From the NCBI RefSeq assembly GCF_004803635.1, contig NZ_SSWX01000013.1, positions 62,001 through 126,000 on the forward strand: a DNA stretch of 64,000 nucleotides, read 5' to 3'. Of the stretch, positions 5,236 to 21,705 are shown one piece after another. Position numbers and translations under genes: made by a program. This stretch comes from Lampropedia aestuarii. GTDB lineage: Bacteria > Pseudomonadota > Gammaproteobacteria > Burkholderiales > Burkholderiaceae_C. The notes beneath the pieces were generated by a model. It was not told where the DNA came from and did not search any database. It saw only the letters and a program-made list of their open reading frames with translations. Position 1 is the stretch's first letter. Each line of letters opens with the position of its first letter.

Positions 5236-6018
5236 ATGCCACCACATATAGAGTTTAAAAATGTTGCTAAACATTTTCCCACGCGTAATCAGCCCAATGC
5301 TTCCAATGTAGTGCAGCATTTGAATTTGCAAATTCAAAAAGGCGAGGTTGTTTCAGTCATCGGCCCATCAGGCTGTGGCAAGAGCACTTTGCTGAATATG
5401 GGTTCTGGTTTGTATTTGCCTAGCGAAGGAGAAGTGCTGGTAGAAGGGGTGCGGGTGACTGGTACGGTGCGACAAGTGGCATTCATGTTGCAAAAGGACT
5501 TGTTAATGCCATGGCGCACGATTCGCCAGAACGTCGAGCTCGGCATGGAAATTGATGGTGTGCGCAAGGACAAGCGCCACCAGGTGGCCAATGCACTGCT
5601 CAAGAAATGCCATTTGGGTGGTTTTGAAAACCATTACCCGTACCAGCTGTCAGGTGGCATGCGACAACGGGCTGCATTGGCACGGACATTGGCTGTCAAC
5701 CCCGATGTCTTGCTGCTCGATGAGCCATTTTCTGCCTTGGATGCACAAACCAAGATGGTGTTGCAGCAAGACTTGGCCGAGACGCTGTGGGATGAGAAAA
5801 AAACTGCGCTCTTTATTACGCACGACTTGATCGAGGCGATCGCCTTGTCCGACCGTATTTTGGTCATGAGCGAGCGGCCGGGACGAATTATTGAGGAAAT
5901 CATCGTTGAGTTGCCCCATCGCAATAACCCGATGCAGCGACGCCGCATGTCTGAGATTGCCCCCATTCAAGGCCGCTTGATGGAGTTATTGCGAGTGGGT
6001 CAGGAAGATCTGCACTGA
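5236..6018 (+). CDS. ABC transporter ATP-binding protein, NitT/TauT (SsuB/TauB) type
   Basis: A 260-residue ATPase. Walker A is GPSGCGKST (about residues 43-51), the Q-loop is in VAFMLQKD, the signature is LSGGMRQRA, Walker B is VLLLDEPFSALD, and the switch His is in LFITHDL. It energises import of a small anion by the permease at 7169 and the receptor at 6074. ATG 5236 is taken as the start; GTG 5218 would add six residues, and neither has a strong ribosome site. It is the first gene of the catabolic block, so uptake of the pathway substrate (a sulfonate- or aromatic-acid-like anion) is inferred. Confidence 0.88.
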   Translation: MPPHIEFKNVAKHFPTRNQPNASNVVQHLNLQIQKGEVVSVIGPSGCGKSTLLNMGSGLYLPSEGEVLVEGVRVTGTVRQVAFMLQKDLLMPWRTIRQNVELGMEIDGVRKDKRHQVANALLKKCHLGGFENHYPYQLSGGMRQRAALARTLAVNPDVLLLDEPFSALDAQTKMVLQQDLAETLWDEKKTALFITHDLIEAIALSDRILVMSERPGRIIEEIIVELPHRNNPMQRRRMSEIAPIQGRLMELLRVGQEDLH

Positions 6019-6073
6019 GCTCAAGACAAAGCGCTTGGATTGCCAAAGTTCAAAGTCACAACAAGGATGCACG

Positions 6074-7078
6074 ATGAAACACCGTTCTATTGATCTGCTT
6101 CGATTATTTGTATTTCCCTTGGCCATGGGGCTTGCGGCCTGGTCGGCGACGCCCAGTGCGGTTGCGCAGGATTTGGAGGAGGTTACTTATTTGTTGCCTG
6201 CACCAGTGACCTCTACTGCTTTTGCCCCTTGGATGCTGGCGCAGCACAAAGGCTATTACAAGGACGAGGGCTTGAATGTGCGATTTATCGCAGCGCGCGG
6301 TGGTGTCGATGTGGCCAAACAGGTGGGGGCAGGCAACGCGGTGATTGGTGGAGCGATGGGCGACACGCCCATCATCGTGCGTGCCAATGGAATTCCTGTT
6401 CAAGCAGTTGCTGTGCTGGGAGCCGGGTCGCTGACTTTGATAGGCACCAAGCAAGACAGTGGTATTAGCAATTTGACTGACTTGAAAGGCAAAACCGCCA
6501 CAGTTGTCGCTTACAGCGATACGACCTATTACGCATTTCTAGGCTCGCTGGAAAAGGTGGGCTTGAATCGCCGCGATTTGGATATCCAGGCAGCCGGTCC
6601 GACGGGTGTGTGGCAATTGTTCAATACAGGTCGCTCGGATGCCATCGCAGGAGTGCCTGATTGGATTGTCAACGTTGAGCAAACCGGCACCAAGGTGAAC
6701 ATCATGCCGCGGGAGCAAACCTTCCAAAGTATGGCGCAAGCGATCATTGCTTCCGAGAAAGTCATCAACGACAACCCAGAGCTGGTGCAAAAACTGGTGC
6801 GAGCCACCTTACGCGGCATGCAGGACATCATGCAAGACCCACAGGCTGCGACCGCTGCTTACGTACAGGCCGTGCCTGCCTACCAGGGGCAAGAGCAATG
6901 GGTGGGTCGAACCTTTGAGCTCTACCGCGACTACGTCTACGCCGATCAAAAAGTGTTGGGCCGCATAGATGCTGAGCGCCTCAAGGCTGTGCAGGATTTT
7001 TATGTCGCGCAAGGCATCGTGCCGCGTGCGCAAGAACTGGACACGCTCTACACCAACCAGTTTGTAGACGCGCAGTAA
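6074..7078 (+). CDS. ABC transporter substrate-binding protein, NitT/TauT (SsuA/THI5-like) type
   Basis: A 334-residue secreted receptor. The signal peptide covers about residues 1-32 (ending SAVAQ). The mature protein begins EEVTYLLPAPVTSTAF, then AQHKGYYKDEGLNVRFI and ARGGVDVAKQVGAGNA, which is the usual N-terminal domain of SsuA/THI5-like receptors. AAGGA precedes ATG 6074; a longer frame from 6035 lacks a ribosome site. It delivers ligand to the permease and ATPase genes on either side. Receptors of this class bind nitrate, sulfonates, thiamine precursors or aromatic carboxylates, and the cluster context favours the last. Confidence 0.88.
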   Translation: MKHRSIDLLRLFVFPLAMGLAAWSATPSAVAQDLEEVTYLLPAPVTSTAFAPWMLAQHKGYYKDEGLNVRFIAARGGVDVAKQVGAGNAVIGGAMGDTPIIVRANGIPVQAVAVLGAGSLTLIGTKQDSGISNLTDLKGKTATVVAYSDTTYYAFLGSLEKVGLNRRDLDIQAAGPTGVWQLFNTGRSDAIAGVPDWIVNVEQTGTKVNIMPREQTFQSMAQAIIASEKVINDNPELVQKLVRATLRGMQDIMQDPQAATAAYVQAVPAYQGQEQWVGRTFELYRDYVYADQKVLGRIDAERLKAVQDFYVAQGIVPRAQELDTLYTNQFVDAQ

Positions 7079-7168
7079 TTCAATAAGGACGGGCTTCCAT
7101 CTGCGCTGCGCATGAGCAGCAGTCTCGATGGATGCTTAAGCAGTTGTTTTGATAAGAGTTTATTGATA

Positions 7169-7945
7169 ATGAAAAAAGATGCTTCCACGTGGATCAGCAG
7201 CGGCTTGGTGCTGTTGGTGTTTTTGATGCTCTGGCAATGGGGCCCAGTTGTGCTGGGAATGCCTGAGTATGTGTTTCCACAATTTACCCGTGTCGTGCAA
7301 GAGGCAGGCCATATGTGGAGCAATAGTGACCTGCTAGGCCATTTTTGGATTACCACTCTAGAGGTAATTCTGGGATTTGTGCTGGGCTCACTGTTGGGGA
7401 TCTTCTTTGGTGTTGTTTTAGGCCTGTCTCCTAAAACCGAGTCCGTGCTCTCGCCCTACATCCTGGCCTTGCAAATCGCCCCCAAAGTCGCTTTCGCGCC
7501 TTTGTTTGTGATGTGGCTGGGCTACACCATTTATCCCAAGGTATTGGTGGCTATCCTGATCGTATTTTTCCCAGTAATGATCAACGTCCTATCGGCAGTT
7601 CGTACCGTTGATCCAGATATGGTCAATTTGGTGCGCACACTCAATGCAGGACGTTTCCAGATTTTCCGCTTGGTCGAATTCCGCTCTGCCATGCCTTCGT
7701 TGTTTTCAGGTTTGCGTATTGCGGCCACGCTCGCGGTGATTGGTGTCACTGTCGGCGAATTGGTGGGCGGCAACAAGGGCTTGGGTTATTTGCTGGTGGA
7801 TGCCGAAGGGCAAGGCAACACTGCAGGCGTTTTTGTCGCCATTGCCGGGCTGACCTTGGTGGGCTTGCTGGCGTATTGGGCTGTTGTGTGGCTTGAGCGC
7901 AGAGTGTTGCATTACATCCCTCGCGCTAACGTGACCACGGTCTAA
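7169..7945 (+). CDS. ABC transporter permease, NitT/TauT (SsuC/TauC) type
   Basis: A 258-residue integral membrane protein with about six hydrophobic helices. The permease EAA-type loop is around ALAVIGVTVGELVGG, and ILALQIAPKVAFAPLFVMWLG is split by the canonical helix break seen in this family. It forms the inner-membrane channel of the importer encoded by 5236-7945. The start at 7169 (MKKDAST) is chosen because the first helix follows directly; ATG 7112 would add 19 polar residues and has no well-spaced ribosome site. The SDR gene begins 12 bases downstream, so transport and catabolism appear to be co-transcribed. Confidence 0.86.
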   Translation: MKKDASTWISSGLVLLVFLMLWQWGPVVLGMPEYVFPQFTRVVQEAGHMWSNSDLLGHFWITTLEVILGFVLGSLLGIFFGVVLGLSPKTESVLSPYILALQIAPKVAFAPLFVMWLGYTIYPKVLVAILIVFFPVMINVLSAVRTVDPDMVNLVRTLNAGRFQIFRLVEFRSAMPSLFSGLRIAATLAVIGVTVGELVGGNKGLGYLLVDAEGQGNTAGVFVAIAGLTLVGLLAYWAVVWLERRVLHYIPRANVTTV

Positions 7946-7957
7946 AGGAGAGTTGGC

Positions 7958-8806
7958 ATGACCACTGTAATGAAGGCCATTGCGTCAAATGGGGGCAGTA
8001 CATCAGCGCTTCAGCGTGAGGACTTGTTCAAGCAAGTGCTAAAGAGCATTCCGGTGGATTTGCTCAAGGGGCGCAAGATCGTGGTGACCGGCGCTGCACG
8101 GGGCTTGGGTTTGGCTTTTGCCCATTGCATTGGCAAAGCTGGCGCAGAGCTTGTCATTGCGGACATTTTGCAAGACGAGCTCGTGCTAGCGGCAGATGCG
8201 CTGCGGCAAACCGGCGCTGTGGTGCATAGCGTGCCACTTGATCTGGCGGACGTCGACTCCATCACGGTGGCTGCGCAGCGTGCCATTGAGTTGCTGGGGG
8301 GGCTCGATGGCCTGGTCAACAACGCTGCAGTGACCGATTCGGGCGGCTTGTCGGCCCATGCCTTGACAGTGCCGGTGTGGGACCGGGTCATGAATGTGAA
8401 TGTGCGCGGCACTTGGTTGATGAGCCGTGCCTGCCATGCCGCATTGGCCGCCAGTGGCCGGGGCGCTATTGTCAATTTGACCTCGGACACCGTGTTATGG
8501 GGCGCGCCCAATCTGCTTGCTTACGTGGCCAGCAAGGGCGCTGTGTCCGCTGTCACGCATTCTCTGGCGCGTGAGTGGGGTGGCGATGGCATCACTGTCA
8601 ATGCAATTGCGCCTGGTTTGACCTTGGTGGAGGCCACTGAGTATGTGCCGCAAGCCCGCCATCAGCACTACGTCGAAGGCCGCGCACTGCCGCGGGAGCA
8701 GCACGCTGCAGATGTTTGTGGCGCAGTGCTGTTTGCGCTGTCGGATCTCTCACGTTACGTGACTGGTCAGGTGTTGCCAGTCAACGGTGGTTTTGTCATG
8801 CATTGA
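7958..8806 (+). CDS. SDR family oxidoreductase
   Basis: A 282-residue classical short-chain dehydrogenase with about 38 extra N-terminal residues before the fold. The NAD(P) motif TGAARGLG is at 44-51, NNAAV follows, and the catalytic pair is Y189 and K193 (YVASK) with an upstream Ser in NLTSD. The C-terminal VTGQVLPVNGG is typical. AAAGGAGAG gives a strong ribosome site. It would oxidise an alcohol or a cis-diol, or reduce a ketone, in the pathway; a dihydrodiol dehydrogenase acting after the Rieske enzyme is one option. Confidence 0.88.
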   Translation: MTTVMKAIASNGGSTSALQREDLFKQVLKSIPVDLLKGRKIVVTGAARGLGLAFAHCIGKAGAELVIADILQDELVLAADALRQTGAVVHSVPLDLADVDSITVAAQRAIELLGGLDGLVNNAAVTDSGGLSAHALTVPVWDRVMNVNVRGTWLMSRACHAALAASGRGAIVNLTSDTVLWGAPNLLAYVASKGAVSAVTHSLAREWGGDGITVNAIAPGLTLVEATEYVPQARHQHYVEGRALPREQHAADVCGAVLFALSDLSRYVTGQVLPVNGGFVMH

Positions 8807-8876
8807 GCAGTGAGCGCATGCCATCACCCAATTCGATCTTTAACACCAATCACATTTTTTGCATGAGGAGTCCACT

Positions 8877-9482
8877 ATGTCTTTAGTCGCACACCAACAC
8901 AATTCCCAAGCGGTCAGCCCGCAAGCACAGCAAGATGCTGTTGTTGCAGAGCAAGTGAACAAGGAGTCACGCAGTTGGGACCGTACTCCAGGCGCGAGTT
9001 TGGAAGAGTGGATGACCAGTCGCATTGCCCGATTTTCAACGCGCAAATACGACTGGGATGCGTTGAAATTCCAAGCCGATTTTGACCCCAAGTTCCGCCG
9101 CGCGCAAATGCGCTATGTGGGCACAGGCGCAACTGGCGTGGGCAATGACCTCAATACCGTGCCCAGCGAGCATTTCACTTTTTCCACGATGGTAATCCCA
9201 GCTGGTCACGAAGGCCCGCCACATATTCACACCGATGTGGAAGAAATCTTTTTTGTCATTCGCGGCAAGCTCAAGCTGGTTATCACACATGGCGATGAGC
9301 GCTACGAGACGATTTTGACCGACCGCGATCTGGTCTCCGTGCCACCGGGTGTCTACCGTGAAGAAATCAACATCGGTGACGAAGACGCCTTGATGTGCGT
9401 GATGCTGGGCGCGAAAAAGCCCATCACGCCGACCTATCCAGCAGACCATCCACTGGCACACATCAAGCGCGAAAAAAAATAA
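8877..9482 (+). CDS. Cupin domain protein
   Basis: A 201-residue single cupin barrel at about residues 95-180 with an N-terminal extension. The first metal motif is PPHIHTDVEE (H116, H118, E122 or E123). In the second motif the usual His position is Tyr (PPGVYREE, Y160), so the metal site would be incomplete or unusual. Such proteins in aromatic clusters act as dioxygenases, isomerases or binding proteins. GAGGAG lies 8 bases before ATG 8877, which decides the start over ATG 8859. The role in this pathway is unknown. Confidence 0.8.
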   Translation: MSLVAHQHNSQAVSPQAQQDAVVAEQVNKESRSWDRTPGASLEEWMTSRIARFSTRKYDWDALKFQADFDPKFRRAQMRYVGTGATGVGNDLNTVPSEHFTFSTMVIPAGHEGPPHIHTDVEEIFFVIRGKLKLVITHGDERYETILTDRDLVSVPPGVYREEINIGDEDALMCVMLGAKKPITPTYPADHPLAHIKREKK

Positions 9483-9526
9483 CGCGTATCTAGGGCGTAT
9501 GCCTGAAGACGTTTCCTGATTCCAGC

Positions 9527-10498
9527 ATGTACACCACCATGACTTCCCCGATTGCTGCTCCTGCGCCTACGGACGCACCTAACCCCAGTGCCGCCCAACT
9601 CGAAGACTTGGAGGCTACTTTTGGCCTGTTCAATATTCGAATGGCCGACGGTGCTGTGGTTTCTGCGCGCGATACGGTCGCTGGCTTGGTTCAAGCGCCT
9701 GTGTTGGTGGCTTTGCATGGTATCGGTTCAGGTTCTGCCTCTTGGCTGGAGTTGGCGCGCATTTTTAATTTGCAACGCCGACTCTTGGCCTGGGACGCGC
9801 CCGGTTATGGCGAGTCCAGTCCTTTGGCCCAGGCGCAGCCACAAGCAACCGCGTATGCCCAACAACTGCAGCGTCTACTGGCTGCGTTGTCGATTGGTGA
9901 TTTTGTGTTGGTTGGGCATTCATTGGGTGCGCTCAGTGCGGCCGCTTTTACCGCAAGCATGGTGCCGGGGTTGATTCCGCGTGCACTGGTATTGATCAGT
10001 CCTGCATTGGGCTACGGTAGTGCGGCCCGAGTAGCCGAAGGCCAGCGGGTGCGTGCACAGCGGCTGGCCAGCATTGAAGATCCCGGTATAGCGGCCATGG
10101 CTGCTGCGCGCTATAGCCATTTGCTCAGTGCGCAAGCCAGTGGCAATGCCAAGGCCTGGGTGCACTGGAATATGGCACGTTTGCAGCCACAAGGCTACCG
10201 CCAAGCAACGGAGTTGCTGTGCGGTGATGACCTGTTGCGCTATTGCCGTGCGATTGAAGCCCAACGCCAGCGCAAAGGCTCGCCGCTGTATCGCTTGCCC
10301 GTGCACATTTGGACTGGCAGTGCCGATGCCATTACTACGCCTTCGCAATGCCAGCAGGTGGCCGATGTTTTTTCTGAGCCCTTGGGGCTGATTGAGGGCG
10401 CCGGCCATGCCTGCTATGTAGAGCAGCCTCATGCCGTAGCCGAGCGGCTCAACCAGGTGTTAGCCACCTTGTCCTCCACTACGGCGAATGGCGTGTGA
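9527..10498 (+). CDS. Alpha/beta hydrolase
   Basis: A 323-residue alpha/beta-hydrolase. The oxyanion-hole motif HGIGSGSASW is near residue 64, the nucleophile elbow is GHSLGA (S132), the acid lies in WTGSADAI and the base His in EGAGHACY. This triad order matches the C-C bond hydrolases of meta-cleavage pathways (MhpC/BphD-like) and also esterases. The presence of an extradiol-type VOC enzyme in the same cluster makes a ring-fission-product hydrolase plausible. ATG 9527 is used; ATG 9539 is an alternative and neither has a clear ribosome site. Confidence 0.85.
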   Translation: MYTTMTSPIAAPAPTDAPNPSAAQLEDLEATFGLFNIRMADGAVVSARDTVAGLVQAPVLVALHGIGSGSASWLELARIFNLQRRLLAWDAPGYGESSPLAQAQPQATAYAQQLQRLLAALSIGDFVLVGHSLGALSAAAFTASMVPGLIPRALVLISPALGYGSAARVAEGQRVRAQRLASIEDPGIAAMAAARYSHLLSAQASGNAKAWVHWNMARLQPQGYRQATELLCGDDLLRYCRAIEAQRQRKGSPLYRLPVHIWTGSADAITTPSQCQQVADVFSEPLGLIEGAGHACYVEQPHAVAERLNQVLATLSSTTANGV

Positions 10499-10500
10499 AT

Positions 10501-11340
10501 ATGATCGATAAGCACCTGATTGATGCCCAAGAGCCTCGCTACATCGTTCCCGCGCTGGAGCGCGGCTTGATGATTCTTGGCCAATTCAGCCGCGAGAGGC
10601 GCGTCTGCAGCGCCCCTGAGTTAGCGCAAGGCTTGCAACTGCCGCGCTCTAGCGTGTTTCGCTTACTCAATACGCTGGAAAGCATGGGTTTTGTAGAGAA
10701 AACCGAAAGTGGGCGCGAGTACCGGCTGGGCTTGGGCGTGTTGCGTCTGGGCTTTGAATACCTGGCTTCGCTGGATTTGACCGAGTTGGGCAACCCTCTG
10801 GTCAATCGTTTGTGTCAGCAAACAGGCCATGCGGCCAATCTGGTGGTGCGCGATGGCAGCCATATCGTCTACATCAGCAAAGCGTCTGCGTCGAACAATC
10901 CATTTATTAGCTCTGTCTCCATAGGTACACGCCTGCCCGCGCATGCGACTGTTTTAGGGCAGGTGGTCTTAAGCGAGCTGAACTTTGAGCAGCTCAACCA
11001 TTTATATCCAGGCACTGAATTGAAATCTTTTACCAAACACACCCCCCGAAATGTGCAGGCACTCTACGACGCCACCCAGTGCATTCGGTCGCAATCCTAT
11101 GTGGTCGGTGAGGGGGTGTATGAAGCCCATATCTCTACCGTTGCAGCACCCGTTTTTAATCACAGTGGACAGATTGTGGCCGCCATGGGCGTCACATTAG
11201 GCACTCCTGCGATCGATGACAGCCAGCGCATGCTGTTGATTGATCGCGTGTGTGAATGTGCCAATGAGCTGTCGGCGCTGCTTGATTATGCGCCTGCGAT
11301 ACAGCGTCGCAAACTGGTCACGCAGTGGGCCATGCAGTAA
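10501..11340 (+). CDS. IclR family transcriptional regulator
   Basis: A 279-residue regulator. The N-terminal winged helix (about residues 10-75) has LERGLMILGQFSRE, ELAQGLQLPRSSVFRLLNTLE and GFVEKTES. The effector domain has LVVRDGSHIVYISK and PAHATVLGQVVLSEL, typical of IclR proteins that sense aromatic or short-chain acids. The gene begins 2 bases after the hydrolase stop; a GTG at 10495 overlapping that stop is an alternative start. Its place within the catabolic operon suggests it controls the operon, with the inverted repeats at 5025-5110 as candidate targets. Confidence 0.9.
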   Translation: MIDKHLIDAQEPRYIVPALERGLMILGQFSRERRVCSAPELAQGLQLPRSSVFRLLNTLESMGFVEKTESGREYRLGLGVLRLGFEYLASLDLTELGNPLVNRLCQQTGHAANLVVRDGSHIVYISKASASNNPFISSVSIGTRLPAHATVLGQVVLSELNFEQLNHLYPGTELKSFTKHTPRNVQALYDATQCIRSQSYVVGEGVYEAHISTVAAPVFNHSGQIVAAMGVTLGTPAIDDSQRMLLIDRVCECANELSALLDYAPAIQRRKLVTQWAMQ

Positions 11341-11348: not shown

Positions 11349-12176
11349 ATGCAAAACAACAACCGATTCTCCAGTGATGCGCTGGCGGGCCAAACCGCTG
11401 TTGTGACAGGGGGTAGTTCCGGCATTGGCTTGGCGACGGCAGACTTGCTATTGGCCTGTGGTGCCAAGGTCGCCATTTGTGGGCGCAACCCCGAGCGGCT
11501 GGCCGCTGCGCGCGCGCAATTGCAGGCCGCGCACCCCAACGCGCAATTGCATGCGCAAACCTGCGATGTACTTGACGAGAGCAGCGTGCGTGCGTTTGCT
11601 TTGGAGGTGCAAACCACATTGGGCCCAGCCTCGGTGCTCATCAACAACGCAGGGCAGGGCCGTGTTTCGACCTTTGCGACAACCGATGACGACGCTTGGC
11701 GCGATGAGCTCAATCTCAAGTTTTTCTCGATCATCTACCCGACACGGGCGTTTTTACCGCAGCTGGAGCAACAAGCTCGGCAACTGGGAGATGCAGCGAT
11801 TGTTTGCTCCAACTCGCTACTGGCGCGCCAGCCCGAGGCCCATATGGTGGCGACTTCTGCAGCGCGTGCAGGTCTTGTCAATCTGGTGCGCTCAATGGCC
11901 ACTGAATTCGCCCCCAAGGCAGTGCGCGTCAATGGCATTTTGATTGGTTTGATCGAGTCAGGCCAATGGCGACGCCGCTTTGCCGCGCGTGATAACCAGG
12001 CGCTCGATTGGCCAGAGTGGAGCGCTGCCTTGGCACAACAAAAACACATACCAATGGGGCGCTTAGGCAGGCCTGAAGAGGCTGCGCAAGCCATTGTTTT
12101 TCTCGCGTCCCCGCTGGCCAGTTACACGACTGGCAGCCATATTGATATTTCTGGAGGTCATTCTCGTTATGCATGA
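11349..12176 (+). CDS. SDR family protein with altered active site
   Basis: A 275-residue SDR fold. The cofactor motif TGGSSGIG is at 20-27, NNAG at 99-102 and the catalytic Ser region is VCSNS. Where the classical YxxxK should stand the sequence reads TSAAR (T169, R173), so both catalytic residues are replaced while the flanking helix (AGLVNLVRSMATEFA) and the C-terminal SGGH are kept. It may be a non-catalytic partner, or use a different mechanism as in some BKR-like SDR subgroups. AAGGAG precedes ATG 11349. The stop overlaps the next gene by 8 bases. Confidence 0.85.
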   Translation: MQNNNRFSSDALAGQTAVVTGGSSGIGLATADLLLACGAKVAICGRNPERLAAARAQLQAAHPNAQLHAQTCDVLDESSVRAFALEVQTTLGPASVLINNAGQGRVSTFATTDDDAWRDELNLKFFSIIYPTRAFLPQLEQQARQLGDAAIVCSNSLLARQPEAHMVATSAARAGLVNLVRSMATEFAPKAVRVNGILIGLIESGQWRRRFAARDNQALDWPEWSAALAQQKHIPMGRLGRPEEAAQAIVFLASPLASYTTGSHIDISGGHSRYA

Positions 12177-14178: not shown

Positions 14179-15000
14179 ATGACAACACCACTGAATATTG
14201 CTTTGATTGGATTTGGCGCGATTGGCAGCGCCGCTGCAGCCCTGTTGCAGCAAACGCCACAAGTGCGCTTGGCCGCAGTCGTGCTGGCTGATTTATCGCC
14301 TGCTTCTTGGATGCCTGAAACTGTGGAGCAACTGGCGCAATGGGCCCCAGAGGCTGAACTGCTCGACCATGTGCCCACCACCGGTATTGATCTGGTCGTG
14401 GAAGCTGCCGGCCATGCCGCAATCCACCAGCATATCTTGGCCGCATTGCAGCGCGGACAGGCTTGCATCGTTGCATCGATGGGGGCCTTGTCTGAGCCAG
14501 GCTTGGCCGAGGAACTGGAAGAGGCCGCGCGCCAAGGGCAGACCCAGGTGGAGTTTGTATCCGGCGCTATCGGTGCGGTTGATGCATTGGCCGCAGCCAA
14601 GATTGGTGGGCTGAGCTCGGTGCGCTACACCGGTCGCAAACCGCCATTGGCCTGGCTGGGCACGCCCGCTGAGCGATCGGTGGATTTGCAAAGCCTTGAT
14701 CAGGCGCACACCCTGTTTGAGGGTTCTGCGCGAGAGGCAGCAGCCCAGTTTCCCAAAAATGCGAATGTGGCCGCGACCATTTCGTTGGCGGGTTTGGGCA
14801 TGGATGCGACGCAAGTGCGCCTGATCGCAGACCCCAATGTGACCGACAACATCCACACTGTAGAAGCCGCTGGCGCATTTGGGAGCTTTGAGTTGACGAT
14901 GCGCAATTTGCCTCTGGAGGCCAATCCCAAAACATCGGCACAAACGGTCTACAGCCTGGTGCGGGCGATCCGCAACCGGGTTGTACATACAGTGATTTGA
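14179..15000 (+). CDS. Aspartate dehydrogenase-like protein (NadX family)
   Basis: A 273-residue NAD(P)-dependent dehydrogenase. The Rossmann motif IALIGFGAIGSAAA is near the N terminus, EAAGHAAI carries the conserved His, then come SMGALSEP, SGAIGAVDALAAA and the C-terminal block PKNANVAATISLAGLG. The known family reaction interconverts L-aspartate and iminosuccinate/oxaloacetate. In this cluster it may instead handle a substituted amino or oxo acid from ring cleavage. ATG 14179 is preferred over TTG 14164. Repeat copy B separates it from the upstream genes, so it may depend on read-through or its own promoter. Confidence 0.85.
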   Translation: MTTPLNIALIGFGAIGSAAAALLQQTPQVRLAAVVLADLSPASWMPETVEQLAQWAPEAELLDHVPTTGIDLVVEAAGHAAIHQHILAALQRGQACIVASMGALSEPGLAEELEEAARQGQTQVEFVSGAIGAVDALAAAKIGGLSSVRYTGRKPPLAWLGTPAERSVDLQSLDQAHTLFEGSAREAAAQFPKNANVAATISLAGLGMDATQVRLIADPNVTDNIHTVEAAGAFGSFELTMRNLPLEANPKTSAQTVYSLVRAIRNRVVHTVI

Positions 15001-15020: not shown

Positions 15021-16502
15021 ATGAGCACTACACATGACACATGGCAGATCAATGTCGCTGGTGAATGGCGCAATGGTCGAGGTGAGGCCTATGCCAGCAC
15101 CTACCCAGCCACCGGCGAAGAGGTGGGGCGGCTTCACGCCGCCTCGGTAGAAGACACCAACGAAGCCATTGAGCGCGCACACCAGGCCTTCAGCACCAGC
15201 GATTGGGCCAGCCGCCTGCCACACCAGCGTGCTGAAGTGCTCTACCGCGTTGCACAGATGATCCGCGATGGCGCTGAAGAACTGGCCCAATTGCAGCGTT
15301 TGGATAACGGCAAGCCGATCAACGAAACCCGTGCGTTGGTCGCCAGTGCCGCCAGCACATTCCAGTTCTTTGGCGCTGCTTGCGAAACATTGGAAGAGAC
15401 CATCACACCATCGCGAGGCGACTACGTGACCATGAGTGTGCATGAACCCATGGGCGTTGTGGCTGCGATCACGCCGTGGAACTCGCCCATTGCCAGTGAT
15501 GCACAAAAATTGGCGCCTGCGCTGGCTGCTGGTAATGCGGTCATTCTCAAGCCTGCAGAGGTCACGCCGCTGCTGTCTTTGGAGCTGGCGCGTATTTGCG
15601 AGGCAGCAGGTGTGCCCAAAGGCATGCTCAGCGTGTTGCCGGGCAAAGGCTCGGTCATTGGCGATGCGATTACCAAACATCCTTTGGTCAAACGGGTTTC
15701 CTTTACCGGTGGCACCAACACCGGCAAGCACATTGCCAGGATTGCGGCCGACAAAATGATGCCCGTCTCGATGGAGCTGGGCGGCAAGTCGGCCACGATG
15801 GTGCTTGAAGATGCCGATCTGGACCACGCAATCGCAGGCGTTTTGTATGGCATTTTCAGCAGCTCGGGCGAGTCATGCATTGCCGGCTCGCGCTTGTTTG
15901 TGGCGCGCCGCATTTACGAAGAGTTTGTTGACCGCCTGGTGGATGGCGCGCAGCGCTTGCGGGTGGGCGACCCTGCCAGCGAAGACACGCAAATGGGTCC
16001 GCTGATTACCGCCAAGCACCGTGAAAGCATCGAGCGCTATGTGGCCATGGGCGTGGACGAGGGCGGCCGGATTCGCACCGGCGGGGTGCGCCCCAGTGGC
16101 GCGCAGTTTGACAAAGGCTGGTTCTACACGCCGACCATTATCGAAGGTCTGAACAACCAGGCCCGCATTGCTCAGGAAGAAATTTTTGGTCCGGTCTTGG
16201 TGGCCATGCCTTTTGATGACGAGGCATCGCTGATCGAGCAGGCCAATGACAGCGTGTACGCCCTGGCTGCAGGCGTGTGGAGCCGTGACTTTAAACGCGC
16301 CTGGAAACTGGGCCGCGCCGTACAAGCGGGCACGGTCTGGGTCAATACCTACAAGCAGTTCTCGATCGCCACGCCATTTGGCGGCTGGCGCGACTCGGGC
16401 CTGGGGCGTGAAAAAGGGCGTGAAGGCATTTTCCAGTACATGGAGCAAAAAAGCATGTACTGGGGAACCAACGAGACACCACTGGCATGGGCCGGGGTTT
16501 GA
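15021..16502 (+). CDS. Aldehyde dehydrogenase family protein
   Basis: A 493-residue ALDH of normal length. The catalytic Cys is C286 (SGESCIAGS), the general-base Glu is E252 (SMELGGKSA), the cofactor segment is FTGGTNTGK and the C-terminal signature is PFGGWRDSGLGREKG. It oxidises an aldehyde to an acid with NAD(P)+. Semialdehydes from extradiol ring cleavage (2-hydroxy- or 2-aminomuconate semialdehyde type) are plausible substrates given the VOC enzyme gene 26 bases downstream. AAGGACGAG precedes ATG 15021. Confidence 0.9.
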   Translation: MSTTHDTWQINVAGEWRNGRGEAYASTYPATGEEVGRLHAASVEDTNEAIERAHQAFSTSDWASRLPHQRAEVLYRVAQMIRDGAEELAQLQRLDNGKPINETRALVASAASTFQFFGAACETLEETITPSRGDYVTMSVHEPMGVVAAITPWNSPIASDAQKLAPALAAGNAVILKPAEVTPLLSLELARICEAAGVPKGMLSVLPGKGSVIGDAITKHPLVKRVSFTGGTNTGKHIARIAADKMMPVSMELGGKSATMVLEDADLDHAIAGVLYGIFSSSGESCIAGSRLFVARRIYEEFVDRLVDGAQRLRVGDPASEDTQMGPLITAKHRESIERYVAMGVDEGGRIRTGGVRPSGAQFDKGWFYTPTIIEGLNNQARIAQEEIFGPVLVAMPFDDEASLIEQANDSVYALAAGVWSRDFKRAWKLGRAVQAGTVWVNTYKQFSIATPFGGWRDSGLGREKGREGIFQYMEQKSMYWGTNETPLAWAGV

Positions 16503-16528: not shown

Positions 16529-17500
16529 ATGAGCGTATTAGGGATTGACCAAATCACGTATGGAGTTCAGGACCTGGCGACCTGCCAGCGCTTTATGCTG
16601 GACTGGGGACTGGCGCTGAGTAGCGAAGCCGAAGACCACATCGTCCTTAGCAGCCTCAACGGCTGCAAGGTCGTGCTTGCCAAGGCCGACAAGCCCGATT
16701 TGCCGCCAGCCATTGAAGAAGGCTCGACGCTGCGCGAAGTTGTCTGGGGCGTAGACAACGAGGCTGATCTGGAGGTCATTGCTGCCCGTATCCAGGGCGA
16801 TCCTGGCTTTGTCGATCAACGCGTAGAAGGCCAACGGCGCATCGGCTGCACCGACCCCAATGGCATGGCTGTGCGTTTTCAAGTCACGCAAAAAAAACCG
16901 ATTGAGGTGGCATGTGCTGCCATGAACACCTGGCAGGCACAGCCGCGTGTCAATACCCCATCACCAATTTACGAACGAGCCCAACCGATTGAGGTTGGCC
17001 ATGTGGTGTTTTTTGTGGCCGACGTGAAAAAAGTCGAGGCCTTCTACACCGAGCGTTTTGGTTTTGTGTCTTCAGATCGCTACCCAGAGCGGGGTGCTTT
17101 CATGCGCTGTGCAGAAAACGGCGGCCACCATGATTTGTTTTTGCTGCAGTTGCCCAATGGCAAGCGCGGCTTGAACCATGTGGCTTTTACAGTGCGCGAC
17201 ATCCATGAGGTGTTTGGTGGCGGCATGCACATCTCACGCTGCGGCTGGGAAACCCAGTTGGGCCCCGGACGCCATCCGGTGTCATCGGCGTACTTTTGGT
17301 ATTTCAAAAATCCGGCCGGAGCCTTGATCGAGTACTACGCCGACGAAGACCAGCTTACCGGCGACTGGGAGCCCCGCAACTTTGAGCCAGGCCCCACGGT
17401 GTTTGCCGAATGGGCCATCGACGGTGGTCTGGATGGCAACACGCGCCGCCAGAAAGATGCCAGTGGCCCGAAAGGCCAATTCTTGACGGAAAAGAACTGA
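16529..17500 (+). CDS. VOC family extradiol-type ring-cleavage dioxygenase
   Basis: A 323-residue protein with two vicinal-oxygen-chelate domains. The N-terminal domain (1-130) lacks metal ligands. The C-terminal domain keeps the 2-His-1-carboxylate set: H158 (EVGHVVFF), H217 (LNHVAFT) and E268 (LIEYY), the arrangement of type I extradiol dioxygenases that bind Fe(II) and open catechols beside the diol. Lengths of 290-320 are usual. AAGGAG lies before ATG 16529; a longer frame from 16487 overlaps the ALDH gene. The ring substrate is not identifiable. Confidence 0.85.
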   Translation: MSVLGIDQITYGVQDLATCQRFMLDWGLALSSEAEDHIVLSSLNGCKVVLAKADKPDLPPAIEEGSTLREVVWGVDNEADLEVIAARIQGDPGFVDQRVEGQRRIGCTDPNGMAVRFQVTQKKPIEVACAAMNTWQAQPRVNTPSPIYERAQPIEVGHVVFFVADVKKVEAFYTERFGFVSSDRYPERGAFMRCAENGGHHDLFLLQLPNGKRGLNHVAFTVRDIHEVFGGGMHISRCGWETQLGPGRHPVSSAYFWYFKNPAGALIEYYADEDQLTGDWEPRNFEPGPTVFAEWAIDGGLDGNTRRQKDASGPKGQFLTEKN

Positions 17501-17511: not shown

Positions 17512-18516
17512 ATGCGACTGCCCATGCCTCGCCTGCATTATTTTGTAGGAATTGCTTGCTCCATGCTGGTGACAGGTAGTTTTGCGCAAGCGCAAGAGCG
17601 CACGCCAGCGCAGCAGGCCTTGGCATCTGCGCGCTTTACCATCATCTCGCCTTTTCCTGCTGGCGGGCCCACGGATGTGTTGGCGCGCACCTTGGCTGAA
17701 GGCTTGAGTGCCCGCTATGGCCAGCCCGCAGTAGTGGAAAACCTGGCCGGTGCAGGCGGCAATATTGGCATGGAGCGTGCCAAACGTGCCAGGGGCAATG
17801 GTCACACATTGTTGGTGGTGCCAGCAGGCAATATCACCATCAACCCTGTGTTGATGCCGAACTTTCCGTTCAATATCCAGCGCGATTTCACGCCCATCAC
17901 CATGCTGGCGAACACGCCCAACGTACTGGTCGTTCATCGCGATGCCGGCATTGACACTGTGGATGCCCTGATTGCCAAGGCAAAAGCTCAACCAGACAGC
18001 CTCAGCTACGCCACTCCTGGCGTTGGAAGTGGGCTGCATATGGCAGGGGAGTTGTTCAAGCACAACGCAGAGGTCGACATATTGCATGTGGCGTATCGCG
18101 GCACAGGCCCGGCCATCAATGACGTTATGGCTGGGGTCGTGCCAATGGCGTTCAGCAGCCTGTTTTCGGTCATGCCCTATATGCAGGCGGGCACGCTCAA
18201 GGTGCTGGCAACCACCTCGGCATTGCGCTCACCCATTGCCCCTGAGCTGCCCACCTTGAACGAGTTGGGCGTGCCAGGCATCGATGTGAGCTCGTGGTAT
18301 GGCTTGTTGGGTCCAGCTGGCATGGAGTCTGAACTGGTTCAGCAGTTGGCCCAGGATGCAGCAGAAATTCTGGCCGAGCCAGACATACAAGCGCGCTTGA
18401 CCAACCAGGGCATGAGTAGCAGGTCCATGAGTCCTGCAGAGTTTGCCAGCAGCATTCTGGTCGAAACACGCGAATGGGAAAAGCTGATTCAAGCCCGCAG
18501 GCTTGTGGCGAACTAA
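17512..18516 (+). CDS. Bug-type tripartite tricarboxylate transporter substrate receptor
   Basis: A 334-residue periplasmic receptor. The signal peptide covers about residues 1-26 (ending GSFAQA). FTIISPFPAGGPTDVLAR, VVENLAGAGGNIG, ATPGVGSG and FSSLFSVMPYM are the standard motifs of the Bug (TctC) family, which is greatly expanded in Burkholderiales. No TctA or TctB membrane genes are present here, so it is an orphan receptor that must borrow a permease or act as a sensor. GAAGGAG precedes ATG 17512. It probably binds a carboxylated pathway substrate. Confidence 0.9.
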   Translation: MRLPMPRLHYFVGIACSMLVTGSFAQAQERTPAQQALASARFTIISPFPAGGPTDVLARTLAEGLSARYGQPAVVENLAGAGGNIGMERAKRARGNGHTLLVVPAGNITINPVLMPNFPFNIQRDFTPITMLANTPNVLVVHRDAGIDTVDALIAKAKAQPDSLSYATPGVGSGLHMAGELFKHNAEVDILHVAYRGTGPAINDVMAGVVPMAFSSLFSVMPYMQAGTLKVLATTSALRSPIAPELPTLNELGVPGIDVSSWYGLLGPAGMESELVQQLAQDAAEILAEPDIQARLTNQGMSSRSMSPAEFASSILVETREWEKLIQARRLVAN

Positions 18517-18600: not shown

Positions 18601-18927
18601 ATGAATGACCGTGATAAGCAGCTTCTTTTGACCGTGGTGCTCAAGCACCACCCGGGTCTGACGCTGGACGACGTGCAAGCACGCATGAAGGCCAGCGATT
18701 GGTGGGAGTCGTTTCCGCCACAGGGCTGCCGCATTGTCTCGTGGACCGTGGCCATGGGCCTGGGACAAATTCTCACCCTGGAACTTCCCCCTGAGAAGTT
18801 GCCTCTTGTCAATTTGGAATTAGAGCGCCGCGCCTGGGGCGTTTTTACAACCGAATGTTATCCAAGTTATGACTTCGTGCCCGTGCGTGAACGCATTCGT
18901 GAACGCGTGCGCAACGGCGGCCAATAA
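18601..18927 (+). CDS. Small hypothetical protein of the catabolic cluster
   Basis: A 108-residue soluble protein with a clear GGAGG ribosome site. It contains DKQLLLTVVLKHHPGL, ASDWWESFPPQGC, SWTVAMGLGQILTLEL and a charged C terminus (RERIRERVR). The strand-helix pattern with a central hydrophobic strand suggests a ferredoxin-like alpha+beta barrel, as in muconolactone isomerases, but no catalytic motif is recognised. Its place between the Bug receptor and the oxygenase genes suggests a pathway role. Function unknown. Confidence 0.7.
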   Translation: MNDRDKQLLLTVVLKHHPGLTLDDVQARMKASDWWESFPPQGCRIVSWTVAMGLGQILTLELPPEKLPLVNLELERRAWGVFTTECYPSYDFVPVRERIRERVRNGGQ

Positions 18928-18969: not shown

Positions 18970-19197
18970 ATGACTGATCGCTACCTTGAACCACACCAGG
19001 CGCGCAAGCGCGCACCCACAACCTATGAAGACCTTTTGGGGGATGCCATTGAGCGCGCTTATGGCGCGGGCATCCATGATTTAAAAGACCTGGTTCAGGC
19101 ACTGAATGACAGCGGCCTGGCCAGTCCAAGCGGAAAAATCTGGACCGAAGAGGTCTATCGCCAGGAAATCGCAGACCTGGCCAACCAAACTGCGTGA
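18970..19197 (+). CDS. Small hypothetical protein, recombinase-like helical domain
   Basis: A 75-residue protein with AAGGAA upstream. It reads as three or four helices: YEDLLGDAIERAYGAG, DLKDLVQALNDSG and TEEVYRQEIADLAN. The pattern 'gly-ala-pro/ser-pro-ser-gly-lys-trp' (LASPSGKIWTEE) resembles the small helix-turn-helix segment of serine recombinases that reads new gene copies, but the protein has no catalytic domain. It ends 23 bases before the Rieske oxygenase gene. It could be a small accessory or regulatory factor of the oxygenase. Function unknown. Confidence 0.65.
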   Translation: MTDRYLEPHQARKRAPTTYEDLLGDAIERAYGAGIHDLKDLVQALNDSGLASPSGKIWTEEVYRQEIADLANQTA

Positions 19198-19220: not shown

Positions 19221-20258
19221 ATGACCACGAATGGCATCCAATCCTACACCCCTGATCAATTGCTCGAAATCGGCTTGAAGGATCTTTGGTATCCGCTGTG
19301 CCCCAGCTCCTTTATCAAGAAAACACCCGTCTCGCTGCGCCGTTTGGGCCGCAAACTGGCCTTGTGGCGTGACCAGCAAGGCGTCTTGCATGCATTGGAG
19401 GACCGTTGCCCCCACCGAGGTGCACCACTCTCGCAAGGCGTGATCCTGGGCGACCGGCTCTCCTGTCCCTACCACGGTGTTGAAGTGCGCTGTGACGGTA
19501 CCGTGACGCGCGTACCAGGCAGCCCTGGCTGTAAGCTGGAAGGATCACGCCCCACTTTCCACTTCCACATTCGAGAAGCCGCTGACGTTGTTTGGCTCTA
19601 CAACAGCCAAGAGCCGGTGGACGTGCCGCCCCCTTTGGTGTTGCCAGAGGAGCTGACCAATGATGACGAATACGGCCATTTCATTTGCTACACAGAATGG
19701 AAGGGCGACTACCGCTATGTGCTGGACAACGTCATGGACCCGATGCATGGAACCTACCTGCACAAGCAATCGCACTCCATGGCTGAAGGCGACTCATCTG
19801 CCAAATTTGGCATTCGCGCAACCGATACCGGCTTTGTGTTCGAGAAAGAAGGCCAGCGCAATGTGAACTTTGACTGGACCGAATGGGCTGATACCGGCAC
19901 GCATTGGATGCGCCTAGAAATTCCGTATCCCAAAACCGGTGGCCCAGGCGGTAACTTCATCATTATTGGCAGCTACACGCCGATTTCTCCAACCTTGTCG
20001 GCGGTATTCCACTGGCGCTGCCGCAAGTTGCCCAAAGGCTGGCAGCGTGACACATGGCGATTTCTTTATCAGAACCGATTGGAGGCACGCCATTGGCACG
20101 TGTTAGAGCAGGACCGCACCATGCTCGAGAACATGGAGCCCGATGCGAACCAGCATGAAGAACTCTACCAACATGATTTGGGCGTTGTGCGTTTGCGCCG
20201 CCACCTCAAAGGCTTGGCACAGGCACAGATCAACTCTCAACAGAACTCCACAGTATGA
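19221..20258 (+). CDS. Rieske non-haem iron oxygenase, oxygenase component (VanA/TsaM-like)
   Basis: A 345-residue oxygenase alpha subunit. The Rieske 2Fe-2S ligands are C63 and H65 (CPHRGAPL) and C82 and H85 (CPYHG). The mononuclear iron site is N170, D173, H176 and H181 (DNVMDPMHGTYLH), with the third ligand further on. The short length and single-subunit form match the demethylase/monooxygenase branch that works with VanB-type reductases (vanillate, toluenesulfonate, phthalate). GAGGA precedes ATG 19221. The stop overlaps the RidA start as ATGA. It is likely to be the first oxidative step of the pathway. Confidence 0.9.
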   Translation: MTTNGIQSYTPDQLLEIGLKDLWYPLCPSSFIKKTPVSLRRLGRKLALWRDQQGVLHALEDRCPHRGAPLSQGVILGDRLSCPYHGVEVRCDGTVTRVPGSPGCKLEGSRPTFHFHIREAADVVWLYNSQEPVDVPPPLVLPEELTNDDEYGHFICYTEWKGDYRYVLDNVMDPMHGTYLHKQSHSMAEGDSSAKFGIRATDTGFVFEKEGQRNVNFDWTEWADTGTHWMRLEIPYPKTGGPGGNFIIIGSYTPISPTLSAVFHWRCRKLPKGWQRDTWRFLYQNRLEARHWHVLEQDRTMLENMEPDANQHEELYQHDLGVVRLRRHLKGLAQAQINSQQNSTV

Positions 20259-20707
20259 CAAAAAACCATCCCCTTGAAGTGACGCGCGTGGTGTGCGAGT
20301 CGGTGCCCGATTTGCCGCATGCCAGTTGGTCGAATGCGCTGGTAGTGGGGCAGGAGGTCGTGCTGTCTGGGCAGACTGGCCACCCCGCCACGCGCAACGC
20401 AGCACAGGCAGGCAGCCCACTTGGCGCCTACGAGCAAACCTTGGTGGTGTTGAAAAAAATCCAGGCGCTACTTGAAGCGGCAGGTGGTGGCACGCACAAC
20501 ATTCTGAAGCTGGTCGTGTACGTCACTGACATCGCTGACAAGGACGAAGTGGGCCGTGCTCGGCGTGACTTCTTTGGCCAAGGGCCGTATCCAGCCTCCA
20601 CCCTGGTGGCGGTCTCTGCGTTGGTGTTTCCTGAGCTGCGGGTCGAGATTGACGCCATTGCACGCCTGGATGTCGATCTGCGAGATGCCAGTCTTGCCAA
20701 AGAGTAA
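20255..20707 (+). CDS. RidA family protein (YjgF/YER057c/UK114)
   Basis: A 150-residue RidA-fold protein with core motifs ALVVGQEVVLSGQTG, ILKLVVYVTDIAD, and VEIDAIARL near the end. RidA proteins hydrolyse enamines/imines such as 2-aminoacrylate, and the family also contains 2-aminomuconate deaminases. Placement between the oxygenase and its reductase, with a 4-base overlap, argues for a pathway role. This could mean that an amino-substituted ring-fission product is deaminated here, which is an inference. Confidence 0.85.
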   Translation: MTKNHPLEVTRVVCESVPDLPHASWSNALVVGQEVVLSGQTGHPATRNAAQAGSPLGAYEQTLVVLKKIQALLEAAGGGTHNILKLVVYVTDIADKDEVGRARRDFFGQGPYPASTLVAVSALVFPELRVEIDAIARLDVDLRDASLAKE

Positions 20708-20736
20708 ATCCGTTCGTTATCTCAAGAGGTTCAGAT

Positions 20737-21705
20737 ATGTCATCTCAAACGCTGCAAGCGCTGGTGCATACGATGCGCTGCGAGGCTGACGGCATCGTCA
20801 GTGTCGAGTTTCGGCCAGCCACTGCGGCTGAAAAGTTTCCCGACTTCGAGGCCGGCTCCCATATTGACTTGCATTTGCCCAATGGACTGGTGCGCAGTTA
20901 CTCGTTATGCAACCCTTCCAGCGACAGCCAGCGCTATGTCGTAGGCGTGCTCAATGACCGCAAGAGCCGCGGCGGCTCTCGCTATGTGCACCAACAATTG
21001 CGCGTTGGCTCCACACTGCCCATTTCGTCACCCCGCAACAACTTCCAACTTGATGAAAACGCACAACGCTCGGTACTGGTGGCTGGGGGTATTGGCGTCA
21101 CGCCGATTTGGAGCATGTTGCAAAGATTGACGGCCATTGGCCGGTCGGTAGAACTTGTCTACTGCGCACGCAGCCGCAAGGAGGCCGCTTTCTGCGATGG
21201 CATAGAGGCATTGGCGCGTGAGCATTCGGTGCCAGTGACATGGCATTTCGACGACCAGGTGGGGGCGCCACCAGATCTGACAGCGCTCTTGGCCAACAAA
21301 GGAGACAACAGCCATTACTATTGCTGCGGGCCAACACCCATGCTGGATGCGTTTGAGCGCAGCTGTGAGCAGCTGGGTTATGCCAATGTGCATATCGAGC
21401 GCTTTGCTGCAGTACATGTGCCAGCGCCTAGCGCGACTCAAAGTTATGTAGTGGAATGCGCCAAGAGCGGAAAAAGCATTGAAGTGCCTCCTGGCAAAAC
21501 GATTCTTGACAGCCTGATCGATGCGGGCCTGAAACCCGACCACAGTTGCAAGGAAGGGGTGTGTGGCGCGTGTGAGATTGCGGTGATTGAGGGGGAGGTA
21601 GAGCACCTCGACGGTATCCTGACCAAAGCCGAGCGTGAGTCCAATAAGACGATGATGATTTGTGTCTCTCGGGCCAAATCACAGCGGCTGGTACTGGATA
21701 TATGA
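20737..21705 (+). CDS. Ferredoxin reductase of the Rieske oxygenase (PDR/VanB family)
   Basis: A 322-residue iron-sulfur flavoprotein. The flavin motif is RSYSLCN (about 53-59), the NAD site is GGIGVTP (117-123) with CCGPTPM (196-202), and the C-terminal plant-type 2Fe-2S ligands are C271, C276, C279 and C309. This order (flavin, NAD, ferredoxin) is typical of phthalate dioxygenase reductase and VanB. It passes electrons from NAD(P)H to the oxygenase encoded at 19221. It is the last gene of the catabolic block. Confidence 0.92.
   Translation: MSSQTLQALVHTMRCEADGIVSVEFRPATAAEKFPDFEAGSHIDLHLPNGLVRSYSLCNPSSDSQRYVVGVLNDRKSRGGSRYVHQQLRVGSTLPISSPRNNFQLDENAQRSVLVAGGIGVTPIWSMLQRLTAIGRSVELVYCARSRKEAAFCDGIEALAREHSVPVTWHFDDQVGAPPDLTALLANKGDNSHYYCCGPTPMLDAFERSCEQLGYANVHIERFAAVHVPAPSATQSYVVECAKSGKSIEVPPGKTILDSLIDAGLKPDHSCKEGVCGACEIAVIEGEVEHLDGILTKAERESNKTMMICVSRAKSQRLVLDI

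Follow-up and report, generated by a model that had tools for sequence, protein, structure and literature searches.

Bacterial breakdown of kynurenate, a neuroactive and immunoactive tryptophan metabolite that serves as a signal in animals, by the quinoline pathway was solved biochemically decades ago, and a paper title from 1961 concerns this route. The enzymes of the pathway carry the numbers EC 1.14.99.2, 1.3.1.18 and 1.13.11.10, to our knowledge some of its enzyme numbers lack sequences, and no gene was assigned to it in the literature that we searched. In the nicotinate and hydroxypyridine pathways (NicC and NicD types), ring cleavage is followed by the action of an alpha/beta-hydrolase on the amide. 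Kynurenine is converted by Pseudomonas to either anthranilate or kynurenic acid, according to PMC4938989.

Here, we analyzed a gene cluster within a 64,000-nucleotide stretch of Lampropedia aestuarii DNA (the window). Pfam-type domain calls gave 18 co-directional genes at 5236-21705 (Table 1), with ATG starts assumed, which puts the opening codon of the ABC ATPase at 5236 and the stop of the reductase at 21705. Every gene named in a first-pass annotation was recovered there on the same strand; its two small unknowns are the 108-aa protein and the HTH_62 protein, and its reading of an aerobic aromatic catabolic cluster was upheld. Intergenic gaps range from -8 to 90 nt, the sole exception being the 309 nt that separate the ThDP gene from the AspDH gene, and a hairpin with a T-tract lies downstream of the final gene (22057-22084). 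Promoter-like motifs (7 versus a shuffle mean of 10.0) and terminator-like motifs (17 versus 21.0) showed no excess over shuffles, and thus we only infer that the 18 genes are co-transcribed. An Rfam scan of 3000-24000 in the window gave no match at gathering scores.

Table 1. Genes of the cluster, with positions in the window and supporting matches
Feature	Position	Strand	Support
ABC importer ATPase, NitT/TauT type	5236..6018	+	PF00005 E 1.1e-31
NMT1-type substrate-binding protein	6074..7078	+	PF09084 E 1.3e-35
ABC permease	7169..7945	+	PF00528 E 6.6e-32
SDR1, classical SDR, proposed dihydrodiol dehydrogenase	7958..8806	+	PF13561 E 1.8e-51; S176, Y189, K193 in 49/49 rows
Cupin, proposed pyridine-ring dioxygenase	8877..9482	+	PF07883 (Cupin_2) E 4.5e-12
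Alpha/beta hydrolase, proposed amide hydrolase	9527..10498	+	PF12697 E 1.5e-19
IclR regulator	10501..11340	+	PF01614 E 5.1e-37
SDR2, proposed double-bond reductase	11349..12176	+	NF005468 433.6 bits, cut-off 266
ThDP enzyme (TPP enzyme), proposed 2-oxoacid decarboxylase	12169..13869	+	NF005470 880.3 bits, cut-off 495
Aspartate dehydrogenase (AspDH; Asp_DH_C)	14179..15000	+	NF009827 374.2 bits, cut-off 226
Aldehyde dehydrogenase (ALDH; Aldedh)	15021..16502	+	PF00171 E 4.5e-168
VOC extradiol-type dioxygenase	16529..17500	+	PF00903 E 2.8e-15; H172, H231, E282 in 49/49 rows
Bug/TctC receptor	17512..18516	+	PF03401 E 4.5e-60
108-aa protein, function unknown, ferredoxin-like model	18601..18927	+	No Pfam match; pLDDT 75.7; weak fold matches
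HTH_62 protein	18970..19197	+	PF20552 E 1.9e-31
Rieske oxygenase with VanA_C domain	19221..20258	+	PF00355 E 2.4e-21; PF19112 E 1e-11
RidA-family protein (Ribonuc_L-PSP), optional part	20255..20707	+	PF01042 E 2.5e-20
FNR/[2Fe-2S] (Fer2) reductase of oxygenase	20737..21705	+	PF00111 E 2e-12; PF00175 E 2.1e-9

The cluster resembles the kynurenate pathway in the number and type of steps as far as 5-(2-carboxyethyl)-4,6-dihydroxypicolinate. The oxygenase and electron partner that the pathway requires are represented by the Rieske/VanA_C and FNR/Fer2 domains (predicted activity), the diol dehydrogenase and extradiol dioxygenase by the SDR1 triad and the VOC His-His-Glu residues (predicted substrates), and the 2-oxoacid decarboxylase and ALDH by family-level matches (ThDP and Aldedh). 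Judged from its sequence, the cluster probably serves to import kynurenate, or its close analogue xanthurenate, and to degrade it completely and aerobically along the quinoline pathway of tryptophan breakdown.

We propose that the acid would enter through the ABC importer and the Bug receptor, under IclR regulation, and that the Rieske oxygenase with its reductase would convert kynurenate (4-hydroxyquinoline-2-carboxylate) to the 7,8-dihydrodiol (step 1), which SDR1 would oxidize to 7,8-dihydroxykynurenate (step 2). The VOC dioxygenase would then split the benzene ring at the C8-C8a bond to give 4,6-dihydroxypicolinate with a 2-oxobutenoate side chain (step 3), the double bond of which would be reduced by SDR2, a protein without the classical SDR residues (step 4); decarboxylation of the 2-oxoacid by the ThDP enzyme would yield an aldehyde (step 5), and ALDH would form 5-(2-carboxyethyl)-4,6-dihydroxypicolinate (step 6). 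Finally, the cupin might use O2 to open the pyridine ring at its C4-C5 bond (step 7), the alpha/beta hydrolase would cut the remaining amide to release 2-oxoglutarate and iminosuccinate (step 8), and AspDH would reduce iminosuccinate to aspartate or, where RidA is present, RidA would deaminate it to oxaloacetate (step 9). Each of the nine core enzymes is assigned one step and all formulae balance, including that of the lower half (C9H9NO6 + O2 + H2O = 2-oxoglutarate + iminosuccinate). The order of intermediates in steps 1-6 is known for the kynurenate pathway, whereas steps 7-9, with the cupin, the hydrolase and AspDH, are newly proposed here and lack a description in the literature searched. 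That complete kynurenate catabolism proceeds through this novel lower half, with cupin opening at C4-C5, hydrolysis and dedicated capture of iminosuccinate by AspDH, is a tentative reading, to which we give slightly less than an even chance.

The lower half is like the nicotinate and hydroxypyridine pathways in its proposed order of ring cleavage and amide hydrolysis, and the FMO that relatives carry as an optional part has 6-hydroxynicotinate 3-monooxygenase as its closest match (E 9.8e-84). It differs in that the window gave no FMO match, a 70% identical copy lying elsewhere in the genome amid other neighbours. A NicC-like FMO was rejected as a core step, with FMO found in 20 of the 32 betaproteobacterial clusters, RidA instead in two and neither in the stretches examined of ten, one of which (L030) stops at a contig end.

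We then compared residues across the relatives, excluding alignment rows below 85% length or 35% identity and duplicate short loci; L035 and L088, apparently one genome, are present twice in the counts. The Rieske residues C72, H74, C91 and H94 were kept in 48/48 rows, and the conserved residues of the VOC, SDR1 and Rieske proteins fit the roles predicted for them. In the hydrolase, S132, D267 and H294 showed 97% or higher conservation over 44 rows, and in SDR2 the catalytic Tyr and Lys are replaced by T177 and R181 (43/43 rows). The cupin retains H122, H124 and E128, and R167 replaces the usual second-motif His in 52/52 rows; this absence of one usual metal-ligand His counts against the proposed dioxygenase role. 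Its predicted structure is poor (mean pLDDT 68.7), and Foldseek returned a generic cupin list including oxalate oxidase, quercetinase, phosphoglucose isomerase and 5-nitrosalicylate dioxygenase. For the 108-aa protein, a single fold match passed E 0.001 and the TM-scores stayed under 0.4; neither fold search was decisive. The HTH_62 gene of the relatives usually lies immediately 5' of the Rieske gene.

The first-pass annotation had called the gene set unusual. Indeed, it matches no described cluster in the literature searched, but it is not unique: a neighbourhood search with AspDH alone as bait, using a custom-built gene caller, found the core of SDR2, ThDP, AspDH, ALDH and VOC genes in 33 of 40 loci from named genomes, and because the other four genes accompany AspDH in these 33 loci, their co-occurrence is more than chance. 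One of the 33 (L053) has a VOC match of just 33% identity, which was excluded from the residue counts. With the limit set at E 1e-150, a search across the class recovered the window's own genome alone out of 274, and looser limits were used in later searches. Environmental carriers of the cluster include Variovorax paradoxus, Comamonas odontotermitis and Aquincola tertiaricarbonis. Most of the core also appears in Klebsiella, Acinetobacter, Caballeronia and Novosphingobium records, in whose versions a RidA annotation is absent. RidA was discarded as a pointer to the substrate, given that it is optional, being present in two of the 32 betaproteobacterial clusters of the named-genome scan.

An amino-aromatic substrate had also been suggested. 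A nitrogen-bearing aromatic is likely, but the ThDP enzyme, classical SDR and AspDH are a better fit for a fused bicyclic N-heteroaromatic acid such as kynurenate than for an aniline or aminobenzoate. Another acid of this kind, quinaldate or a different hydroxyquinoline carboxylate, might enter the same Rieske-SDR-VOC-ThDP-ALDH sequence, which we regard as unlikely. Near the cluster, L065 and L069 carry molybdenum-hydroxylase large-subunit genes, of a family including quinoline 2-oxidoreductase, and L043 has a 2Fe-2S subunit-like gene; however, just two cluster-holding stretches carry the large subunit, and the L065 enzyme is matched best by 4-hydroxybenzoyl-CoA reductase rather than by a quinoline enzyme.

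The cluster shares with the VanAB and DdmABC demethylases a Rieske oxygenase with a VanA_C domain (PF19112, 45.8 bits, cut-off 23.5) and an FNR/Fer2 reductase, and among PDB entries the Rieske protein is matched best by dicamba O-demethylase (DdmC; E 8.9e-19, residues 29-193). The substrate could thus be a nitrogen-free aromatic acid, with O-demethylation of the vanillate or dicamba type and an AspDH that merely serves nitrogen metabolism, but we consider this improbable. No NCBIfam match of the Rieske protein reaches its cut-off or belongs to a demethylase model, and its gene, unlike those of the demethylases, lies among extradiol, ThDP and AspDH genes, the reductase being swapped in some relatives for a Rieske-type ferredoxin (L064) or a flavodoxin (L053), each with an FAD reductase. 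Moreover, AspDH is present in 33/33 core loci, which is partly expected because it was the bait, as well as in the clusters of Klebsiella, Acinetobacter, Caballeronia and Novosphingobium that came up through VOC, and in L050 it forms a separate operon with the cupin and hydrolase genes.

With the 2-aminomuconate (3-hydroxyanthranilate) meta pathway, the window shares an extradiol-type enzyme, an ALDH and RidA, and AspDH relatives adjoin 3-HAO genes in L049, L051, L054 (with kynureninase and tryptophan dioxygenase families) and L116 (beside annotated kynU). The route hinted at in the first-pass annotation, aminophenol extradiol cleavage followed by ALDH oxidation to 2-aminomuconate and RidA deamination, is nevertheless very improbable: it is unsupported because RidA is optional, PF06052 (the 3-HAO family) had zero matches in the cluster's 18 proteins, ALDH scored 394.5 bits against the 2-hydroxymuconic semialdehyde dehydrogenase model TIGR03216 (cut-off 693.25), and the extra Rieske oxygenase aside, the ThDP enzyme, SDR2 (one of two SDRs), cupin and AspDH are left without a role. 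The matches listed for ALDH include no 2-aminomuconic semialdehyde dehydrogenase model. We know of no requirement for a ThDP enzyme in that route.

The AspDH homologues that lie with kynurenine or 3-hydroxyanthranilate genes in L049, L051, L054 and L116 speak for the kynurenate reading. For this reading, we also examined associations with tryptophan and kynurenine genes, in statistics that ignore relatedness among the sampled genomes. In the family sample, the cluster was present in all three genomes with an aromatic aminotransferase adjoining tryptophan dioxygenase (G613, G650, G670; at least three pairs among the matches listed, to about E 4e-132) versus 11/147 others (one-sided Fisher 6.6e-4), a count made post hoc once the pattern had been noticed. 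Pairs were taken within 10 kb with positions compared by eye, and since only the matches listed were used, an aminotransferase of greater divergence next to the dioxygenase may have escaped notice. Outside this sample, G404 likewise combines the cluster with such a pair, while G646 lacks kynureninase and yet has no aminotransferase adjoining its dioxygenase. Among the family genomes with tryptophan dioxygenase, the cluster occurred in 4/5 without kynureninase versus 8/91 with it (6.9e-4); the dioxygenase itself was less clearly associated, occurring in 12/14 cluster genomes versus 84/136 others (p 0.063), a point against the reading.

In the order sample, tryptophan dioxygenase was present in 8/10 cluster genomes versus 49/290 others (3.6e-5), and kynureninase was as associated (8/10 versus 42/290). 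Among dioxygenase-positive genomes of this sample, the cluster was found in 0/16 kynureninase-negative versus 8/41 kynureninase-positive ones, which argues against the kynurenate reading. Three of the 13 ThDP-positive genomes (G278, G440, G534) were left out of the cluster count, as the only other cluster genes in their stretches are Bug- or SDR-like; G346 was counted although its stretch has no recognized Rieske gene. Two further points stand against this reading. The window's own genome carries both tryptophan dioxygenase and kynureninase, and a homology search of the cluster-holding stretches revealed no tryptophan dioxygenase, kynureninase, formamidase or that aminotransferase.

By its family match, the window's AspDH is classed as an aspartate dehydrogenase (EC 1.4.1.21). 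Purified KpnAspDH showed 26.5 U/mg in oxaloacetate amination and 3.42 U/mg in deamination (PMC5554190), and the primers given there, when translated by eye, encode an MKKVMLIGY start and a CRELA end, the termini of the 254-aa AspDH of the Klebsiella cluster. The Klebsiella cluster protein appears to be the enzyme assayed as aspartate dehydrogenase, which also favours the kynurenate reading.

Overall, this widespread cluster is probably the missing genetic basis for kynurenic acid catabolism, by a route that is testable step by step. If so, it would provide candidate sequences for the sequence-less enzyme numbers of the pathway and explain the role of a catabolic aspartate dehydrogenase. Kynurenate-removing bacteria of soil, plants or the gut would become predictable from their genomes, and the alpha-, beta- and gammaproteobacteria that carry the cluster, including animal-associated ones, could be sinks for a host signalling molecule.

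The cluster is genuine and conserved. Its gene list and positions in the first-pass annotation, which had described an aromatic-catabolic gene set on one strand, are correct: the named genes were all recovered where that annotation placed them in the window, a part of a 4.17 Mb genome. The 18 genes are preceded by a porin gene on the opposite strand, and the last of them is followed by a hairpin and a T-tract. GC content falls to 45% before and across the first importer gene, and is 53-59% in the remainder of the cluster. Elsewhere in the window, one 1966-residue ORF looks like a tandem fusion of two halves of UvrA, its UvrA interaction domain lying at a distance from its DNA-binding domain.

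Coordinates of the features discussed, in the window or in loci (L) fetched from this or other genomes
Feature	Sequence	Position	Strand	Content
Cluster	window	5236-21705	+	5'->3': three importer genes, SDR1, cupin, hydrolase, IclR, SDR2, ThDP enzyme, AspDH, ALDH, VOC, Bug receptor, 108-aa protein, HTH_62 protein, Rieske oxygenase, RidA, reductase
GC fall	window	4001-6000		
UvrA-like ORF	window	25410-31310	-	
NicC-like FMO	L104 (own genome G000, contig C75)	8829-9977		between Bug receptor genes
AspDH homologue + DHDPS-family gene	L054	3349-10792		
same	L049, L051	about 4300-10800		
same	L116	10688-23983		
same	L055	9021-10795		
Tryptophan dioxygenase adjoining aromatic aminotransferase, Lrp-type regulator nearby	L107	6353-10175		
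same	L108	9514-12197		
same	L109	9457-14724		
same	L110	13397-17995		

Named genomes were scanned with AspDH (aspartate dehydrogenase) as bait, which gave 40 loci. SDR2, ThDP, AspDH, ALDH and VOC genes occur together in 33 of these, 32 from betaproteobacteria (Variovorax, Comamonas, Vandammella, Aquincola, Rhodoferax, Pseudorhodoferax) and one from Maritimibacter, whose VOC shares just 33% identity; L049-L052 and L054-L056 make up the remainder. The Rieske gene is visible in every core locus except L030 and L041, both of which stop at a contig end. RidA is found in 2/32 betaproteobacterial clusters, a NicC-like monooxygenase (FMO) in 20/32, and neither is in view in 10/32. The FMO of the own genome lies away from the cluster and is 70% identical to that inside Variovorax clusters. 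Molybdenum-hydroxylase subunit genes are found some 10 kb or less from the cluster in L043, L065 and L069, and by eye in L064. A close ThDP homologue was present in 14 of the 150 family-sample genomes, and the VOC gene in all 14 genomes checked (13 ThDP-positive family genomes, the own genome aside, plus G404 from outside that sample).

Annotated records of Klebsiella pneumoniae, Acinetobacter baumannii and Caballeronia contain Rieske, SDR1, VOC, cupin, hydrolase, SDR2, AspDH, ALDH and ThDP genes together with ferredoxin, FAD oxidoreductase and MFS transporter; a Novosphingobium record has this enzyme set too, but with neither a clear SDR1 nor a ferredoxin in view. The P. aeruginosa enzyme (reference 9 of the paper on Klebsiella KpnAspDH) may belong to a similar cluster. 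For purified KpnAspDH, PMC5554190 gives 26.5 U/mg for oxaloacetate amination and 3.42 U/mg for deamination; the primers there encode nine N-terminal and five C-terminal residues identical to those of the Klebsiella cluster AspDH (read by eye, termini only), and the mass of 26.8 kDa agrees with 254 residues.

Putative active-site residues, with roles known from the protein families, were counted over aligned rows. H172, H231 and E282 of the VOC enzyme and the classical Ser-Tyr-Lys of SDR1 are each kept in 49/49 aligned rows; the Rieske protein retains its four cluster ligands in 48/48 rows, H185 in 47, and H190 and D307 in 48. The cupin retains HxH and Glu, with Arg instead of the second-motif His (52/52). 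In SDR2, Thr and Arg replace Tyr and Lys in 43/43 rows, which makes it unlikely to be an ordinary alcohol dehydrogenase.

The Pigmentiphaga stretch L050 carries cupin, hydrolase, IclR, AspDH and Bug genes without the remaining cluster genes, and in L062 and L093 the AspDH-IclR-hydrolase-cupin group is separate from the SDR-ThDP-ALDH-VOC-Rieske part; the latter looks like an upper pathway and the former a lower one. Relatives differ in what supplies the oxygenase with electrons, a Rieske-type ferredoxin with FAD reductase in L064 and a flavodoxin with FAD reductase in L053, the locus with the 33% identical VOC.

A ThDP enzyme and an ALDH acting after an extradiol cleavage point to a ring-opening product with a 2-oxoacid side chain bound to an aryl group, as is the case if the opened ring is one of a fused pair. 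Breakdown of kynurenate (4-hydroxyquinoline-2-carboxylate) passes through a dihydrodiol and a diol; the ring is then cut at 8,8a, the side chain is reduced and decarboxylated, and the aldehyde is oxidised to 5-(2-carboxyethyl)-4,6-dihydroxypicolinate. This last compound appears among tryptophan-pathway metabolites in PMC10543884. Cupin, hydrolase and AspDH would be left over for a lower half, in which this picolinate, one O2 and one H2O would yield 2-oxoglutarate and iminosuccinate; AspDH would convert iminosuccinate to aspartate, and RidA, where present, could deaminate it. The computed elemental formulae balance for all steps, which is a consistency check and not proof.

Several observations speak for a link between these genes and kynurenine metabolism. 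L054 carries AspDH, 3-HAO (3-hydroxyanthranilate dioxygenase family), kynureninase, FAD_binding_3 protein, tryptophan dioxygenase, ALDH and a DHDPS-family gene in one run, and in Phaeobacter AspDH, a DHDPS-family gene, kynU and 3-hydroxyanthranilate 3,4-dioxygenase are annotated inside about 13 kb. In all, 3-HAO is present in four of the five AspDH/DHDPS-family loci, the exception being L055. Such loci may encode a path for 3-hydroxyanthranilate, with iminosuccinate released by an aldolase-type enzyme and taken up by AspDH. The genomes G613, G650 and G670, which bear the cluster, have tryptophan dioxygenase next to an aromatic aminotransferase (NF006719, above cut-off), and a kynureninase homology search of the three gave no match; at this pair G670 has a formamidase above the TIGR03035 cut-off, to which one in G613 is 76% identical. 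G404, also with the cluster, has an aminotransferase/dioxygenase group beside kynureninase and a second dioxygenase. The groups in L107-L110 are candidate kynurenate-forming operons. PMC4938989 describes Pseudomonas converting kynurenine to anthranilate or else kynurenic acid.

Among the tryptophan-dioxygenase-positive genomes of the family sample the cluster was present in 4/5 without kynureninase versus 8/91 with it (kinship uncorrected), a contrast fixed before the kynureninase search; the aminotransferase count there, likewise uncorrected, was post hoc, made after the dioxygenase-neighbour pattern emerged. Other findings speak against a link. The contrast in kynureninase was reversed in the order sample, at 0/16 without versus 8/41 with the enzyme, kinship again uncorrected, and kynureninase and tryptophan dioxygenase each occur in 8/10 order-sample cluster genomes. 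Tryptophan dioxygenase was found in 12/14 family-sample cluster genomes versus 84/136 others (p 0.063, uncorrected for kinship). The own genome has both tryptophan dioxygenase and kynureninase, on contigs other than that of the window, and a homology search of the cluster-bearing stretches with nine proteins detected no tryptophan dioxygenase, kynureninase, formamidase or dioxygenase-linked aminotransferase.

The titles, abstract openings and passages searched yielded no genes named for kynurenate catabolism, and as far as this literature extends the cluster matches no characterised one. Taken together, the best reading of the cluster is the pathway for kynurenate, its lower half being newly proposed.
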